Source: a virus
Strand: one strand, 5' to 3'
Length of the DNA stretch: 26,961 nt
IMG/VR virus record: IMGVR_UViG_3300019889_000033
Location: 1-26,961 of that record
Below, piece after piece: positions 3,201-12,866 of this stretch (its first letter is position 1; each line of letters opens with the position of its first letter). The notes beneath the pieces were generated by a model. The model made no database searches. It worked only from the letters and a program-made list of their open reading frames with translations, and was not told where the DNA came from. The translations under genes were made by a program, and so were the position numbers.

Positions 3201-3278
3201 TGTGTTCGAACTTTTTCAACTCAAATGCCGGGCCTGACCCGAAACAGCGCAAGTGCAGCAATTGCAGGGAGGTTTGCT

Positions 3279-4223
3279 ATGCCGTCGAGCATGATCCAGT
3301 CGATCAAATGGAACGGCCAGCAGATCACGGTTCCTGGTGTCTACTCCCGGTTGCCGCTTGATGATTACCACCGCGGCGATATCTGTGACGGGCCGAGCGT
3401 GTCGTCGTCGACGTTGCGCACGTTGATCAACACCTCGCCCGCGCATGCATGGGCAGCTTGCCCGCTCAATCCGAGCCGTGCCGAGCCGAAAGAAACCGAA
3501 GCGTTCGCGCTGGGCAGAGCTACGCACCATCTGCTCGCCGCCGAGATCGGGTTCGAAAACGTGTTTGCTGTCAGGCCCGAGCAGATCGGCGGTGAAGCGT
3601 GGCAGGGCAATCGCACGGTTTGCAAAAAGTGGCTGGCGCAGGCGAAGCGCGAGGGCAAGACCGTGCTGACACCAGCGCAGGTCGAGCAAATACGTGGCAT
3701 GGCGGTGAGCCTTGGCCAACACCCCCTGGTGCAGGCGGGGATTCTCAACGGGCTGATCGAGCGCAGTATGTTCTGGAGCGATCCGGAAACCGGGCTGTGG
3801 CTGAAGGCGCGGCCCGACGCGATACCATCGGATGACGGCGATTTTAGCGATTTGAAAACCTGCCTGTCGACGCTGTACCTCGACCTGCAACGATCGATCT
3901 CCGACTTCGGCTATGCGCAGCAGGCCGCATTGACGTTCGAGGGCGCGCGAGCGCTCGGCATCGAGGCGAACAGTTTCAATTTGGTCTGGATCGAAAAGAC
4001 GCCGCCGTATTGCGTGCGGGTGCAGCAATTGCGCGATGAGGATATCGATCGCGGCAGGAAGCTGAACCGGGTTGCGATCAGAATGATCAGCGATTGCCTG
4101 TCGACCGGCATCTGGCCCGGCCCCGGCGATGATAGGCCAGATGCTGAATTTGTCGATTTGCCCGAATGGAAGCGCACGCAGATTGATGAACGCCTGCGCC
4201 TGCAACTGAGGGAGGCCGCATGA
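3279..4223 (+). CDS. PD-(D/E)XK exonuclease of the RecE / lambda-exonuclease type
   Basis: A 314-residue protein from ATG 3279, chosen because GGGAGG lies six bases upstream and because residues before it read like non-coding sequence; the frame itself is open back to 2952. Landmarks: a LNPSRAEP/AFALGRATHHLL helix (the G-x-x-x-H motif of the family), WLKARPDAI providing the first catalytic aspartate, and DFSDLKTC giving the D-x-K of the PD-(D/E)XK core, then a Y-x-x-Q-like FGYAQQAAL helix. This is the pattern of the RecE C-terminal domain, which degrades the 5' strand of duplex ends to leave 3' tails for an annealing protein. The RecT-like protein downstream at 5940 is its expected partner. 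Confidence 0.8.
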   Translation: MPSSMIQSIKWNGQQITVPGVYSRLPLDDYHRGDICDGPSVSSSTLRTLINTSPAHAWAACPLNPSRAEPKETEAFALGRATHHLLAAEIGFENVFAVRPEQIGGEAWQGNRTVCKKWLAQAKREGKTVLTPAQVEQIRGMAVSLGQHPLVQAGILNGLIERSMFWSDPETGLWLKARPDAIPSDDGDFSDLKTCLSTLYLDLQRSISDFGYAQQAALTFEGARALGIEANSFNLVWIEKTPPYCVRVQQLRDEDIDRGRKLNRVAIRMISDCLSTGIWPGPGDDRPDAEFVDLPEWKRTQIDERLRLQLREAA

Positions 4224-4230
4224 AATAAAC

Positions 4231-4305
4231 CGCGCAGCGCTACGCCGCGCACCGCTGCGCCTCGCAACACCGCGCTTCGCCGCGCATCGCACCGCAACGC
4301 AACGT
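4231..4305. repeat. Pentanucleotide array 1, about 15 units of NNCGC
   Basis: Read in steps of five from 4231, this 75-base stretch consists almost wholly of NNCGC units (for example CGCGC AGCGC TACGC CGCGC), with one clear deviation (AACAC). The two variable bases differ from unit to unit while CGC stays fixed. It starts seven bases after the exonuclease stop and ends in AACGTCCTATTCC; two further units and a partial one follow near 4320-4340. The same unit builds the much larger array at 5440-5880. It is not a CRISPR, as there are no long repeats or spacers. Confidence 0.85.
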
Positions 4306-4376
4306 CCTATTCCAACGAGGTCGCACCGCAAACGCTTCGGCAACAGTCGGTCAATCCCTCACAGAGAAACCAAAGG

Positions 4377-4391
4377 ATGAACACCCCATGA
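4377..4391 (+). other. Four-codon leader ORF overlapping the next start
   Basis: ATG-AAC-ACC-CCA-TGA begins directly after CAAAGG and its TGA overlaps the ATG of the next gene at 4388 (ATGA). It may couple translation of the RAMP-like gene to ribosomes already loaded at the leader, but coding is unproven. Confidence 0.3.
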
Positions 4392-4948
4392 GAACAGTAG
4401 CCGTGACCCTTCAATCGATCACACCCTATTCGCAGAGCCGTCAGCATGAGACTCCGAAATTAAACGGCGAGACCAATGACGCGCATGAGCTGCGCACGTG
4501 GCGCGACAAGTGCAACTGCAACGACAAGGGCGAGATTTTCATTCCAGCGATGGGGCTAAAGCAGTGCTGCGACAGCGCGGCTAAGAAAAGCGGTCTGCAA
4601 ATTCCAGGCAAGGGCAAGTCGACCTATGCCAAGTATTTTCTGGCCGATGTTATCTGCGACAACGATGTGTATCTCGGCGTTTACAAGGCTGATGTCGCTT
4701 CGGTTCGGATCAGCGCCAACGTCGATGGCATTCGCGGGAGCGGCAAGCGGGTTTGGAAAACCTTTCCAGTGATCCCGACATGGGTCGGAATAATAGCAAA
4801 TTTCACAATCATGGACGACACCGTGACGCGCGAGGTGTTTGAACAGGTGCTCAAGATCGGCGGGGCCAGTATTGGCATCGGTCGCTTTCGCCCAGAGAAG
4901 GGCGGGTTAAATGGTCGCTTCAAGCCTACCAAATTCGAGTGGAGTTGA
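4388..4948 (+). CDS. RAMP/Cas7-like protein in the recombination operon (tentative)
   Basis: A 186-residue protein. The first strand VAVTLQSITPYS is followed by GEIFIPAMGLKQCCDSAAKK (about 49-67), which resembles the xIPGSSLKGxxR segment of RAMP-fold proteins (Cas7, Csm3, Cmr). Near the C-terminus GIGRFRPEKGGLNGRF (163-178) resembles the glycine-rich loop of the same fold. There are no obvious catalytic nuclease residues. It lies between the exonuclease and the RecT-like gene with no CRISPR-Cas genes nearby, so if the fold is right it is probably a single-strand nucleic-acid-binding accessory of recombination or an RNA-binding protein. The resemblance is by eye; a phage-specific fold without homology remains possible. 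Confidence 0.45.
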   Translation: MRTVAVTLQSITPYSQSRQHETPKLNGETNDAHELRTWRDKCNCNDKGEIFIPAMGLKQCCDSAAKKSGLQIPGKGKSTYAKYFLADVICDNDVYLGVYKADVASVRISANVDGIRGSGKRVWKTFPVIPTWVGIIANFTIMDDTVTREVFEQVLKIGGASIGIGRFRPEKGGLNGRFKPTKFEWS

Positions 4949-4952
4949 GCCG

Positions 4953-5435
4953 ATGACGGTGCAAACCCTATTTGTGAAACGGCCAGAGACGGCAGACCTG
5001 ACGCGCAAGATTATCGCGGTTCTGATCGGGACGAATGATGAGATGTCGGACGAAGCCCTGTCACAAATGGTTGGCGTGCCGGTTCGATCGGACACATATG
5101 CGCTGCGCGCTGCTTTGCGTGACCTGGAACGGGCTGACCCGCCCGTTCTGTTCCGTCGTGTCCGTAAATTCGGGTGGAAGCGGATGCGCGATACCGACAT
5201 TGTCGTTGGGTCGGAGGGTGATCTCAAAAAGATCGCGCGTGGCGCTCGTCGTGGTCGCAAACGGTTGGGAAAGGTGGTCTTCGACCGCTTGTCGAACGGT
5301 GAGCAGCTTCACGCTGCCCGCAACAATACACGGTTTGCCGCAATCGAGGATGCGGCGACGACCGTCAAGCCCCGTCACACCTCCACGATTCCTGATCTGA
5401 GTTCTGTGCTGCAAAAGATAAAGGAAGTAAAATGA
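4953..5435 (+). CDS. Uncharacterised, winged-helix-like basic protein
   Basis: A 160-residue protein starting at ATG 4953, four bases after the previous stop. Residues about 15-60 (KIIAVLIGTNDEMSDEALSQ, then a YALRAALRDLERA helix and a VLFRRV strand) have the helix-helix-helix-strand rhythm of a winged-helix domain, followed by a basic RRGRKRLGKV patch. This suggests DNA binding, perhaps in replication or recombination, but no family is recognised. Its stop is immediately followed by pentanucleotide array 2. Confidence 0.6.
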   Translation: MTVQTLFVKRPETADLTRKIIAVLIGTNDEMSDEALSQMVGVPVRSDTYALRAALRDLERADPPVLFRRVRKFGWKRMRDTDIVVGSEGDLKKIARGARRGRKRLGKVVFDRLSNGEQLHAARNNTRFAAIEDAATTVKPRHTSTIPDLSSVLQKIKEVK

Positions 5436-5439
5436 TCGA

Positions 5440-5880
5440 CCCGCGCCGCGCGTCTCAACGCAACGCCACGCCGCGCGTCGCCACGCAGCGCAACGTCTAT
5501 AGAGATTTTCGCAGCGCAGCGCCGCGCGAGGCTTCACGACGCACCGCTACGCCGCGCAGCGCTTCGCAACGCATCGTCTATCGAAAATTGCCCGCGCTTC
5601 GCTCGGCACCGCAGGGCTACGCGACGCCACGCTTCGCAACGCTTCGCATCGAATTTCCCCGCCGCGCAGCACTACGCAAGGCCGCGCGTCGCATCGCTCG
5701 GCTTCGCAACGTCTATCAACCATTTTCCTCCGCCACGCAGGGCAGTGCCGCGCAAGGCTCCGCATCGCAAGGCTCCGCACCGCACCGCATCGTCCATCCA
5801 CCCGCTCGGTTAGGCTTCGCCTCGCAACGCCGCGCTCGGCAACGCTCGGCACCGCTGCGCCACGCTTCGCAGCGCAACGA
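5440..5880. repeat. Pentanucleotide array 2, six blocks of degenerate CGCNN units
   Basis: About 440 bases made mainly of five-base units CGCNN. Blocks are roughly 5441-5495, 5511-5575, 5593-5651, 5661-5710, 5731-5790 and 5814-5878, separated by short non-repeat spacers. Several spacers begin with CGTCTAT (5494-5500, 5575-5581, 5710-5716) and one with the related CGTCCAT (5791-5797). Within the central part the five-base phase is kept across the spacers. An open frame (5432-5935) runs through, starting with an ATGA overlap and encoding an Arg/Ala/Ser/Gln/Thr-rich low-complexity product, and another frame is open on the opposite strand; both are expected from a stop-poor GC repeat. I treat it as a repeat element, with a disordered basic protein as the alternative. 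Confidence 0.85.
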
Positions 5881-5939
5881 TTTGTATTTAGGAAATTGGG
5901 ATATCGGCCATGAGCGACGAAACGATGAGGGGTAATTCA

Positions 5940-6908
5940 ATGGAAACGGCAATGGCTGACGAAGTGCCAGGCGTGAAGTCACGTGAACCGGAAGACACTG
6001 GCCGCGTGACGCGACGGATGCTCGCCGAAGGCCAGATCGAACGGGTGATGACCGAGCGCACCACCATGGTCCCGATCTCCGACTTTGGTTTGAAATTCGA
6101 GAACGCTTTCCAGATGGGCGAGGCGGCGAAATTGATGGCGACCGCCGGTCCGATGCTGCCTGAATGGCTGCAAGGCAATGTCGGCGGCTGCTGGGGCATC
6201 ATCTTGCGGGCAACCGAGCTTGGCATCTCGCCGCTGACGTTGGCGAACTGGAGTTATTTGGTCGAAAACAAAGGCGTTAAGCGGGTCGCCTATGAATCGC
6301 AATTCTATCACGCCATCATCGAGGCCCGCGCGCCGCTGAAGGAGCGGCTGCAATACGAGATCATCGGCGAAGGCGACGATCGCAAGTGCCGGGTATGGGG
6401 CACCTTCAAGGGCGAGACCATCGTGCGCGAGCTGACCAGCGCGACGCTGGGCGAGCTGCGGCCCGGCAAAAACCAGTATGGCCAGACCAAAGGGTCGCCG
6501 TTGTGGGACCGCAAGCCCAACGTGCAGATGTTCTATGACACCTCGCGCGACTGGGCGCGGATGTTCTGCCCCGACATCCTGGGCGGCGTTTACGCGCGCG
6601 ACGAAATGGAAGAGGCAGAGGAGCGCCGCATCGGTCCCGATCACGCCAAGGACGTTTCGCCGAAATTGCGCGAGCGCCTGCGCGGCCCGGTGGGTGAAGG
6701 CTTCGAGCATACCAAGTCATCGATCGAAGCGTCGATCGCAGCCGCGACGACGGTCGATCACAAGAGGTCCGGCAGGAGTTCCGCTGCTGCCGGTCAATCG
6801 GCGGATGTTGTGATGCCATCCGCCGAGGCCGCGTCGTCGTCGCTACAGCCCCCAGCTCATGACGACGGCGCGGCTATTTCTGATCAACCAACGGGAGCCG
6901 ACGTATGA
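5940..6908 (+). CDS. recT: RecT-family single-strand annealing protein
   Basis: A 322-residue protein from ATG 5940, preferred over the in-frame ATG at 5910 because GAGGGG lies eight bases upstream. The core matches the RecT layout: FENAFQMGEAAKLMATAGPM, then LPEWLQGNVGGCWGIILRATELGISPL, a YLVENKGVKRVAYESQF strand pair, and the C-terminal WDRKPNVQMFYDTSRDWAR. RecT proteins coat the 3' single strands made by a partner exonuclease and anneal them to complementary DNA, here with the nuclease at 3279. The last roughly 80 residues are Ala/Ser rich and probably disordered. Symbol given by family. Confidence 0.85.
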   Translation: METAMADEVPGVKSREPEDTGRVTRRMLAEGQIERVMTERTTMVPISDFGLKFENAFQMGEAAKLMATAGPMLPEWLQGNVGGCWGIILRATELGISPLTLANWSYLVENKGVKRVAYESQFYHAIIEARAPLKERLQYEIIGEGDDRKCRVWGTFKGETIVRELTSATLGELRPGKNQYGQTKGSPLWDRKPNVQMFYDTSRDWARMFCPDILGGVYARDEMEEAEERRIGPDHAKDVSPKLRERLRGPVGEGFEHTKSSIEASIAAATTVDHKRSGRSSAAAGQSADVVMPSAEAASSSLQPPAHDDGAAISDQPTGADV

Positions 6909-10878: not shown

Positions 10879-11229
10879 ATGGGTCAAAATCTGAAGACCA
10901 CGCGGCAGACGGCGACAGAACTGGCGGTCAATCCAGAGCAGGTCCGGCGGCTGGTCAAGGACGGCGAATTGCACCCCATCAACGTCGGTCGAGGGTCGAA
11001 ACGCGAGAGCCTCCGGTTCGAAGATGACGACATCGCGGCATTCAAGGAACGACGAAAGCAGAGGACCGTCACGCCATGCCCAGCGTCTACAAACGCGGCC
11101 ACTCGAAATACTTCGGCACCGACATCTGGATCGACGGTGTTAAGTTTTCGCGCTCGACTAAGAAAACAAGCGAGCGAGAAGCAAACACCGCCGCCATCCA
11201 AATCGAAAAAGACCTCCGCGCCTCTATAG
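10879..11229 (+). CDS. Excisionase-like helix-turn-helix protein
   Basis: A 116-residue frame from ATG 10879 (GAGG eight bases upstream; GTG 10870 in frame is an alternative). The first 60 residues, TRQTATELAVNPEQVRRLVK followed by a wing-like DGELHPINVGRG and a DDIAAFKERR helix, match MerR/Xis-type winged helices that bind beside att sites and steer integrase toward excision. The last 51 codons overlap the integrase gene in another frame and look like unselected Thr/Ser/Pro sequence. Position directly before int supports the assignment. Confidence 0.7.
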   Translation: MGQNLKTTRQTATELAVNPEQVRRLVKDGELHPINVGRGSKRESLRFEDDDIAAFKERRKQRTVTPCPASTNAATRNTSAPTSGSTVLSFRARLRKQASEKQTPPPSKSKKTSAPL

Positions 11230-12326
11230 CGGCGGCAGGCGTCTCGCAAAACTCGCTGCGCCTCGATCACGTGGCCGAGCGCTACATGCGCGACGTCGGC
11301 GACCACCATGCGGGCGAGGGTGCCGCGATCACGCAAAGCAAGGTCGCGCTGGTCGTCAAATTTTTCGAGGATAGCTATGGGCCGGAAATCGACCTGCCCT
11401 CGATCGACCATGGCAAGGCGACCGCGCTGCTGAACTGGCGGCGCAAGCACAAGGTCGGCGAAGCCGCCGCGCTGCTCGACCCGACCGGCAAGCGCAAGGT
11501 CGGCAAGAAGGCCAAACCGATCACCGCGTTCACGATCAATGACACCACCGAGCAACTGAAAAAATTGTTCACCTATGCGAAGGCGAACAAGGCGGTTCTG
11601 CCGGACGCACCAGACTTCAAAAAGTTATGGCTGCCCGAGCCGAAGGTTCGTCCGAGGGTTCTGTCCCTTGGCGAGAGCGACCGGCTGGATGATGCCAGCG
11701 CGACGCTGCGGGCGGACTATGATCCGCTGATCCAGTTTGCGCGCACCACCGGCAAGCGCAAATCCGAATGCTACAAGCTGGAGCACGAGCACTGCAAATG
11801 GGATCGCGGCATCATCATCCTGAAAGGCAAGGGCGACAAGGAACTGATCATCAAGATCACGCCTGCGATCCGGGCGATCCTGTGGCCGCTGCGCTCCCAC
11901 CATCCTCAGTTCGTGTTCACCTATATCGCCCAGCGCACGCGCACCCAGAAGCGCAAGGATGGCACGGTCGAGAAGCTGGTTGCGGGCAAGCGCTACCCGA
12001 TCACCAAGGATGGGCTGCGGCGGCAATGGACCAACATCCGGGTCGAGGCGGGCATCCCGATCGCGGGCAAGGACCGCTTCCGGTTCCATGACATCAGGCA
12101 CGATTTCGCCTCCAACCTGCTGGCCTCGGTGGAGACCGCAGACGGCATCAAGATCGTGCAGGAGGCGCTGGGGCACGCCGATATCTCGACCACGATGAAT
12201 ACCTATGCCCACGTCAATGCCGCGCGGGTGGCTGCGGCGATCGAGGAGCAGGCTCAGGCGCGGATGCAAAGGCGGGCCGAAAACCACCGCAGTGACCGCC
12301 GCAGCCGCAGGCTGAAATCGGTTTAA
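11076..12326 (+). CDS. int: Tyrosine recombinase / phage integrase
   Basis: A 416-residue protein with all expected catalytic positions: R228 in TTGKRKSE, K near 250-252 in ILKGKGDKE, H338 and R341 in HDIRHDF, H367 in LGHADIS and the nucleophile Y377 in NTYAHV. The N-terminus (SVYKRG, DGVKFSRSTKKTSE) fits a small arm-site-binding domain, followed by a SAM-like core-binding domain at about 60-190. It recombines attP with a chromosomal attB; the tRNA fragment at 12368-12411 just downstream is the expected core. The C-terminal tail is Arg/Gln rich, and its gene segment carries one of the candidate arm sites. Confidence 0.95.
   Translation: MPSVYKRGHSKYFGTDIWIDGVKFSRSTKKTSEREANTAAIQIEKDLRASIAAAGVSQNSLRLDHVAERYMRDVGDHHAGEGAAITQSKVALVVKFFEDSYGPEIDLPSIDHGKATALLNWRRKHKVGEAAALLDPTGKRKVGKKAKPITAFTINDTTEQLKKLFTYAKANKAVLPDAPDFKKLWLPEPKVRPRVLSLGESDRLDDASATLRADYDPLIQFARTTGKRKSECYKLEHEHCKWDRGIIILKGKGDKELIIKITPAIRAILWPLRSHHPQFVFTYIAQRTRTQKRKDGTVEKLVAGKRYPITKDGLRRQWTNIRVEAGIPIAGKDRFRFHDIRHDFASNLLASVETADGIKIVQEALGHADISTTMNTYAHVNAARVAAAIEEQAQARMQRRAENHRSDRRSRRLKSV
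12277..12293 (+). repeat. Candidate integrase arm site, left arm
   Basis: CCGAAAACCACCGCAGT lies inside the last codons of int, about 75 bases left of the tRNA-derived core. It matches the repeats at 12489-12526 except for one extra A. Arm-type sites on both sides of a core are the known arrangement of lambda-like attP. Confidence 0.55.
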
Positions 12327-12367
12327 GCGCTGCGACACTAGGCTAACTCTTGACAAGCCCCCTTTAC

Positions 12368-12411
12368 TGGGAGACTAGGGGTCGGAGGTTCAAATCCTCT
12401 CGCTCCGACCA
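12368..12411 (+). other. attP: Attachment-site core: 3' part of a proline-type tRNA gene
   Basis: The 44 bases from TGGGAGACTAGGGG to the CCA end contain the anticodon 3' side, a T-arm GGAGG-TTCAAAT-CCTCT, the acceptor strand CGCTCCG, discriminator A and an encoded CCA. An acceptor ending in G72 with A73 implies a C1-G72 pair, a hallmark of tRNA-Pro. The sequence to the left is not tRNA, so no 5' half is present and this is not a functional tRNA. Integration into the chromosomal gene would restore a complete tRNA from this half. The exact core limits cannot be set without the host sequence. Confidence 0.8.
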
Positions 12412-12414
12412 AAT

Positions 12415-12440
12415 AAGCCCCTAGAAATAGGGGCTTTTTT
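12415..12440 (+). terminator. Rho-independent terminator after int and the tRNA fragment
   Basis: AAGCCCCTA pairs perfectly with TAGGGGCTT around GAAA, followed by a run of T (12435-12440). It begins four bases after the tRNA CCA end, so it would terminate int transcription in free phage and the restored tRNA after integration. Confidence 0.9.
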
Positions 12441-12488
12441 GCATTTCGGGGGCAGCGACCGAAGGGTACGAAAGTCGAACAAAACCTC

Positions 12489-12538
12489 CCGAAACCACCG
12501 CAGTTTAACCGAAACCACCGCAGTTTCCACCGCAGTGG
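12489..12538 (+). repeat. Candidate integrase arm sites, right arm (three copies)
   Basis: CCGAAACCACCGCAGTTT occurs at 12489-12506 and 12509-12526, 20 bases apart, and a third CCACCGCAGT at 12527-12536 directly follows, extended to a small palindrome with CCAC/GTGG ends. They lie about 80-130 bases right of the attachment core, and a related copy lies on the other side at 12277. Confidence 0.7.
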
Positions 12539-12866
12539 TGCCCCTTTGTTCCTGCCTTTGGAGGGTTGGTATGCCAGAGAATACGCGGTTTTTGGGAGGG
12601 GGCGAGCTATGCCTACCCGCCGCGCGCCATGCGGGCTGAGACCGCCGCCAACCGGCGCGCGCCTCCCGCTCAAGCGCACGCCAGGGTCGGGGCCGCCCGG
12701 CGGGTGGGGCCAGGATAGCCCCGGCCAAGCTAGAGCCTACGGGCGGGGCGCGGTGGGGCTTGGCGCGCGCCGGTAGCGGCGGGCGGGCGGCATTGCGCCA
12801 GGGAGACTGGCCGGGCCTACGGGCGGGACGCTATATGGGCCGGGGGCCAATTGGAGGGTAACATTT
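12539..12866. other. GC-rich gene-free stretch between attP and the next operon
   Basis: No convincing gene. It contains a 13-base direct repeat GCCTACGGGCGGG (12735-12747 and 12815-12827) and many G-runs. An ORF at 12608-12776 follows GGGAGGGGG but encodes Pro/Gly/Arg-rich sequence with no protein-like pattern. A promoter for the next operon must lie near the right end, where TAACATTTGTGA (12858-12869) echoes the TAACATTTGTTA at 17465-17476. Confidence 0.5.

Follow-up and report, generated by a model that had tools for sequence, protein, structure and literature searches.

In the window analysed here, the whole stretch of 26,961 nucleotides of viral DNA, two tracts of five-base units lie at gene junctions of an operon with exonuclease VIII-like, RAMP-like and RecT-like genes. 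The question raised by this locus is what a repeat of constant triplets and variable letter pairs does at these junctions, and whether it serves the adjoining genes as DNA, as RNA or as coding sequence.

Two pentamer arrays occupy gene junctions of the window

Both CGCNN arrays (4233-4302 and 5444-5877) lie on the sense strand, the plus strand, as do all operon features given below. A sequence-only reading had proposed periodic pentamers here, and its check by identity at lag 5 bore this out; identity was 0.62 at 4231-4306 (0.286 in 2000 first-order Markov shuffles, sd 0.073, maximum 0.55) and 0.51 at 5440-5880 (shuffles 0.291, sd 0.026, maximum 0.385), each above the maximum of its shuffles, and about 0.25 in the rest of the window. 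The pattern (CGCNN)5, with at most two mismatches, was matched 66 times in the window when 2.3 matches were expected. The pentamer arrays are confirmed as real and far above chance.

The same reading took CGC as fixed, which holds for 67 of the 83 units; the others carry GGC (11), CAC (3), CTC (1) or TGC (1), and the sole invariant base of the triplet is the third, C (83/83), with G at the second position in 79 units and C (71) or G (11) at the first. The two NN positions have entropies of 1.77 and 1.95 bits and are nearly random. The first array starts 9 nt past the stop codon of the exonuclease VIII-like gene (3249-4223; phrog_412, E 5.6e-72) and the second 8 nt past that of the gene at 4953-5435, slightly farther than the seven bases first reported. 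Downstream lies the RecT-like gene (5910-6908; phrog_561, E 5.6e-37); this gene and the exonuclease gene are context, outside the system described below.

The first array comprises 14 units, with the variable letters AG TA CG AC TG CT AA CG TT CG AT AC (AA AA), and is followed by a putative 3' tail, CGTCCTATTCCAACGAGG (4303-4320), assigned from the sequence and the tails of relatives, its end being an estimate. The long array is made of six modules of 10-15 units each, most with a short tail behind: M1 (10 units, 5444-5493) with CGTCTATAGAGATTTT (5494-5509), M2 (13 units, 5510-5574) with CGTCTATCGAAAATTGCCCG (5575-5594), M3 (11 units, 5595-5649) with the short CGAATTTCCC (5650-5659), M4 (10 units, 5660-5709) with CGTCTATCAACCATTTTCCTC (5710-5730), M5 (12 units, 5731-5790) with CGTCCATCCACC (5791-5802), and M6 (at most 15 units, 5803-5877) with CGATTTGTATTTAGGAAATT (5878-5897, end estimated). 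Irregular units occur in some modules. The typical tail is CGTCTAT plus an A/T-rich stretch; tails of this type recur in the window and its closest relatives (for example CGTCTACCAAGTTTATCCA and CGTCTGCGAAATTTGCCAC in contig L129), and those of M3 and M6 deviate. The CGTCTAT and CGTCCAT spacers noticed earlier are real, and stand behind the unit modules. In Rfam searches of the window and six relatives nothing reached the gathering score, hence no hammerhead ribozyme was recognised in them, and the array had no DNA similarity to phage and plasmid records.

The adjoining genes encode homologues of Vipr and Vap1

A RAMP-like gene in the operon had already been noticed, but the link from the arrays to it had not been drawn. 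Its 186-aa product (4388-4948) was modelled with AlphaFold2 (pLDDT 95.8), and the model shares the RAMP fold of Csm3/Cas7, aligning over about 160 residues at an rmsd of 3.6-4.1 (Z 12.4). The protein matches phrog_4652 (E 7.5e-6), to which Vipr of Escherichia phage SUSP1 also belongs, and hhalign aligned it to SUSP1 Vipr with 96.5% probability over the C-terminal part; tblastn of the window protein against phage records gave no match, so that profiles were needed for the link to SUSP1. Likewise, BLASTP between the window and SUSP1 Vap proteins returned nothing, whereas the profile of the next protein (4953-5435, 160 aa) matched SUSP1 Vap1 (E 9e-15); its AlphaFold2 model (pLDDT 91.8) gave winged-helix-like matches of middling Z, placed in its N-terminal part.

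VIPR, a minimal relative of CRISPR, was reported in April 2026 in a preprint (PMC13142463), which describes a RAMP protein (Vipr) encoded by phages, together with the accessory gene vap and with vrRNAs that consist of 9-16 YNNGG units plus a 3' tail. It states that VIPR binds double-stranded DNA, passing over one base from each NN pair to the next, and silences competing phages, that vap1 enhances protection, and that all VIPR types have GGY/NN "or a related consensus" (PMC13142463). The earlier statement that no named element has this form was true until that preprint appeared. In SUSP1 (KT454805), its model phage, the stretch at 27.5-29.5 kb shows vipr, vap1 and GGYNN arrays, and our array-finding method recovers its GGT/NN arrays.

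The window and the type II system of SUSP1 are alike in being phage-borne, in a phrog_4652 RAMP gene followed by vap1, in one vrRNA upstream and several downstream, and in tandem pentamers of a fixed triplet and NN with a tail behind each tract, the NN coming after the triplet's pyrimidine; targets with a 1-nt skip are a further likeness, seen for the window's close relatives. Each component of a VIPR locus has its counterpart here: the Vipr protein, about 20 kDa in size and of RAMP fold, in the 186-aa protein, the vap accessory gene in 4953-5435, the pentamer tract with hypervariable NN in units whose triplet is CGC, and the invariable 3' tail in the tails behind the tracts, M3 and M6 deviating. 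In contrast to SUSP1, the window triplet is CGC and not GGY, which the preprint's "related consensus" may or may not cover; its tails are short and unstructured, whereas the SUSP1 tail is folded with a pseudoknot; its tracts end in near-invariant CGCAA units; and the system sits between exonuclease and RecT genes. Because Vipr and Vap1 homology, gene order, array layout and register all agree with SUSP1, we conclude that the window holds a VIPR system, a variant of the one recently described, and we hold with high confidence that the arrays are its noncontiguous guide RNA (vrRNA) genes. By its vap1 and its SUSP1-like layout the system appears nearest to type II.

The RAMP fold is also that of the backbone subunit (Csm3/Cas7) of Class 1 CRISPR-Cas. 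Unlike a Class 1 operon, the window has no contiguous-guide repeat-spacer array; its arrays are pentamers and the predicted guide is gapped, and a Pfam and PHROGs scan recognised no other cas genes among the flanking genes.

The carrier is probably a phage or prophage of an alphaproteobacterium. A tyrosine integrase is encoded at 11076-12326 (37% to Sinorhizobium phiLM21, the nearest phage record), and an exact 20-bp tandem repeat lies behind it at 12489-12526, within the region 12338-12679; this may mark an attachment region or the end of a prophage. No tRNA was found.

CGCNN arrays accompany the Vipr family in other phages

A scan of viral contigs for nine CGC triplets, all exact and five bases apart, a type of search that the sequence-only reading had proposed, recovered at least 120 stretches with one anatomy. 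Among those listed, tracts mostly of 8-18 units are followed by a tail and then by the next tract; the arrays lie on the operon sense strand, the first tract right behind a stop codon and the last directly 5' of the ribosome-binding site that follows. Tracts very often close with two or three CGCAA units, and the tails, of 18-69 nt, are near-identical within one contig (for example CGTTTCTTTTGGCAATTTATC in L088, and likewise in L106). Tails of 56-69 nt that form stable hairpins, unlike those of the window, were seen at L106:608-1111 (a 56-nt hairpin, z -4.8) and L059:8967-9035 (z -4.0). One long array, L014:137-434, fits CGCNN on both strands, has no vipr gene in the stretch examined and is probably a different, palindromic repeat.

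Among the matches listed, profile searching found a vipr homologue in 84 of the 120 array stretches, mostly adjoining the array, a count that excludes the window's own copies and two protein-selected loci; a profile from a 51-row alignment was too diverse for the collection search. Conversely, 89 loci were picked by protein similarity alone, and a sense CGCNN array lay within 2.5 kb in 75 of them; as a control, the other sequence of these loci, 787 kb in all, held 8 weak arrays. Thirteen of the remaining 14 loci (L163, L168, L175, L180-L183, L189, L197, L199 and L202-L204) carry pentamer arrays with GGC, CTC, CAC, GAC, GTC or CGA, and in the last, L213, the array is degenerate and close to CGC. 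The arrays associate near-exclusively with the Vipr protein family. On a tree of 115 Vipr proteins the triplet label requires 10 changes, and each of 200 shuffles required more; for CGC versus the rest, 8 changes suffice.

Guides of close relatives match mobile-element genes with a one-base skip

The reading rule was examined with 355 non-repetitive guides, scanned at skips of 0-3 against 2.38 Mb of sequence with arrays masked; low-complexity guides, which gave false matches at every skip, had been filtered out. At E<0.01, four guides matched at skip 1, none at the other skips, and none when guides were shuffled; these E-values are simple binomial ones and rough, and the argument rests on the controls. 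The best guide, from L051, agreed at 26 of its 28 letters with L024, a related phage contig. In the near-identical VIPR phages L051, L137 and L024, orthologous guides differ only at a few NN letters, a case of guide evolution in action; these guides read as degenerate peptides, with NN as the first two codon positions.

A Paracoccus litorisediminis contig, L205, carries a related prophage whose Vipr falls with that of the window in a supported clade of nine rows. Its guide 9900, searched as 20 letters with at most two mismatches, was found exactly in 2 of 125 genomes of the genus and with one mismatch in a third; the reversed control gave one 2-mismatch match, and 0.001 exact matches were expected. 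The gene for the phage terminase large subunit gpA (PF05876, PF20454, phrog_15 for L217) contains both exact sites and two of the near sites, one with 1 mismatch and one with 2; the sites are in frame with it, and the skips fall on wobble positions, which vary between genomes. In two genomes eleven units pair, at 22/22 letters, and the two closing CGCAA units are unmatched, which suggests that such units are part of the handle. With skips of 0 and 2 the same letters had no match, and with a skip of 3 they matched their own array alone.

Guide 9299 of the same contig matched 22/22 letters at 77 sites, and in the five loci read these encode, antisense and with skips on wobble positions, the VDVVVVYKIDR motif of serine recombinases; its reversed control gave about 10 matches at up to 3 mismatches, and since the sites share one conserved motif, they amount to roughly a single independent event. 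Guide 10580 matched the YTRKSSEEGL motif of the same serine recombinase family with 2-3 mismatches in 23 genomes, and its control gave none. Sites of these two guides lie about 210 bp apart in that family (for example G024:C112:89598 and 89808). Since all three tested guides of L205 point to mobile-element genes, we do not ascribe the matches to chance. Together, the natural targets of close relatives indicate that the 1-nt-skip code holds in the CGC branch.

For the window's own seven guides no target was found, either in the searches described next or in the window itself; recognition with a 1-nt skip was found for relatives with the same triplet, not for these guides. Nine-unit skip-1 patterns from array 1, M2, M3, M5 and M6 gave only four matches in viral contigs, all to M5, which do not extend and sit in low-GC contigs and were therefore rejected as chance. 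In 200 genomes of the Rhizorhabdus family, array 1 had one 3-mismatch match, below the reversed control.

Alternative readings of the arrays

The TRAP RNA leader resembles the arrays in its (G/U)AGNN repeats, with a fixed triplet and 2-nt linkers at period 5; its linkers carry no targeting information, it involves no RAMP protein and it is not related. By analogy, the arrays could be repeated mRNA or DNA binding sites through which the RAMP protein, or RecT, autoregulates as TRAP does (NAGNN), the NN being uninformative, and a fixed triplet with a 2-nt linker, on the sense strand and adjoining the gene's own start, would suit such a role. However, in related prophages the NN letters, read in a gapped register, fit mobile-element genes at 22/22 letters, and a locus holds several modules with their own tails, also downstream of genes, so we consider this reading improbable. 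A binding site for RecT or the exonuclease was rejected because the arrays do not track those genes, which are near only 19 of 83 vipr loci. Nor is the proposal of half-turn DNA spacing, with NN as free, meaningless variation, supported; in the vrRNA reading the variable letters would carry the guide information and the constant triplet would be scaffold.

A disordered Arg/Ala-rich protein, suggested by a 167-aa open frame over the array (5432-5935) whose start adjoins the vap stop codon, is very improbable: no forward frame of (CGCNN)n can form a stop codon, so the open frame is no evidence of a protein and the earlier view that selection acts on nucleic acid stands, and the same arrays occur as short, separate intergenic tracts, also with other triplets. 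The translation has a weak PHROG match, to the uncharacterised phrog_31265 (E 2e-4), and no Pfam match; such arrays may sit in databases as proteins. A functionless filler repeat, self-propagating or slippage-born, would account for the tandem structure and simple unit and is equally improbable, since the arrays keep to the gene of one protein family across phages whose Vipr identity falls to 34%, are few and weak elsewhere in the same loci, and change triplet along with the protein, and since slippage would give uniform rather than nearly random NN.

Discussion

As vrRNA genes, the modules would each be read in operon sense, the constant triplet (CGC, with GGC, CAC and CTC tolerated) serving as a scaffold bound by Vipr subunits, and the closing CGCAA-type units forming the handle together with the short tail. 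In each unit, the two variable letters would pair with double-stranded DNA, with one skipped base between target letter pairs, so that a guide of n units would read 2n letters across 3n bases, the skip usually falling at codon wobble positions. The complex would silence genes of competing phages and mobile elements. RNA expression, the ribonucleoprotein, DNA binding and silencing are here carried over from the preprint (PMC13142463); that Vap1 probably helps silencing is suggested by its middling winged-helix matches and the preprint's vap1 result.

While VIPR itself is already known, the breadth of triplet switching under an unchanged reading rule and the alphaproteobacterial targets may be new. 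We give about even chances to the view that the triplet is a switchable code, changed some ten times (CGC, GGC, CTC, CAC, GAC, GTC, CGA) along with the protein while neither the skip-1 rule nor the position of the guide letters changes, with CGCAA units in the handle; as the triplet changes along with Vipr in one branch, coexisting VIPR systems may be mutually orthogonal.

For annotation, the warning is that such arrays always form open reading frames. The repeated triplet switches would offer a direct route to the residues of scaffold specificity and to orthogonal minimal RNA-guided DNA binders. For the family, the sequences by themselves show that the noncontiguous guide code of GGY-type VIPRs extends to a large branch, mostly from alphaproteobacteria, whose scaffold triplet differs, and the natural targets to which it points are phage terminases and serine recombinases, at conserved protein motifs and with wobble positions skipped.
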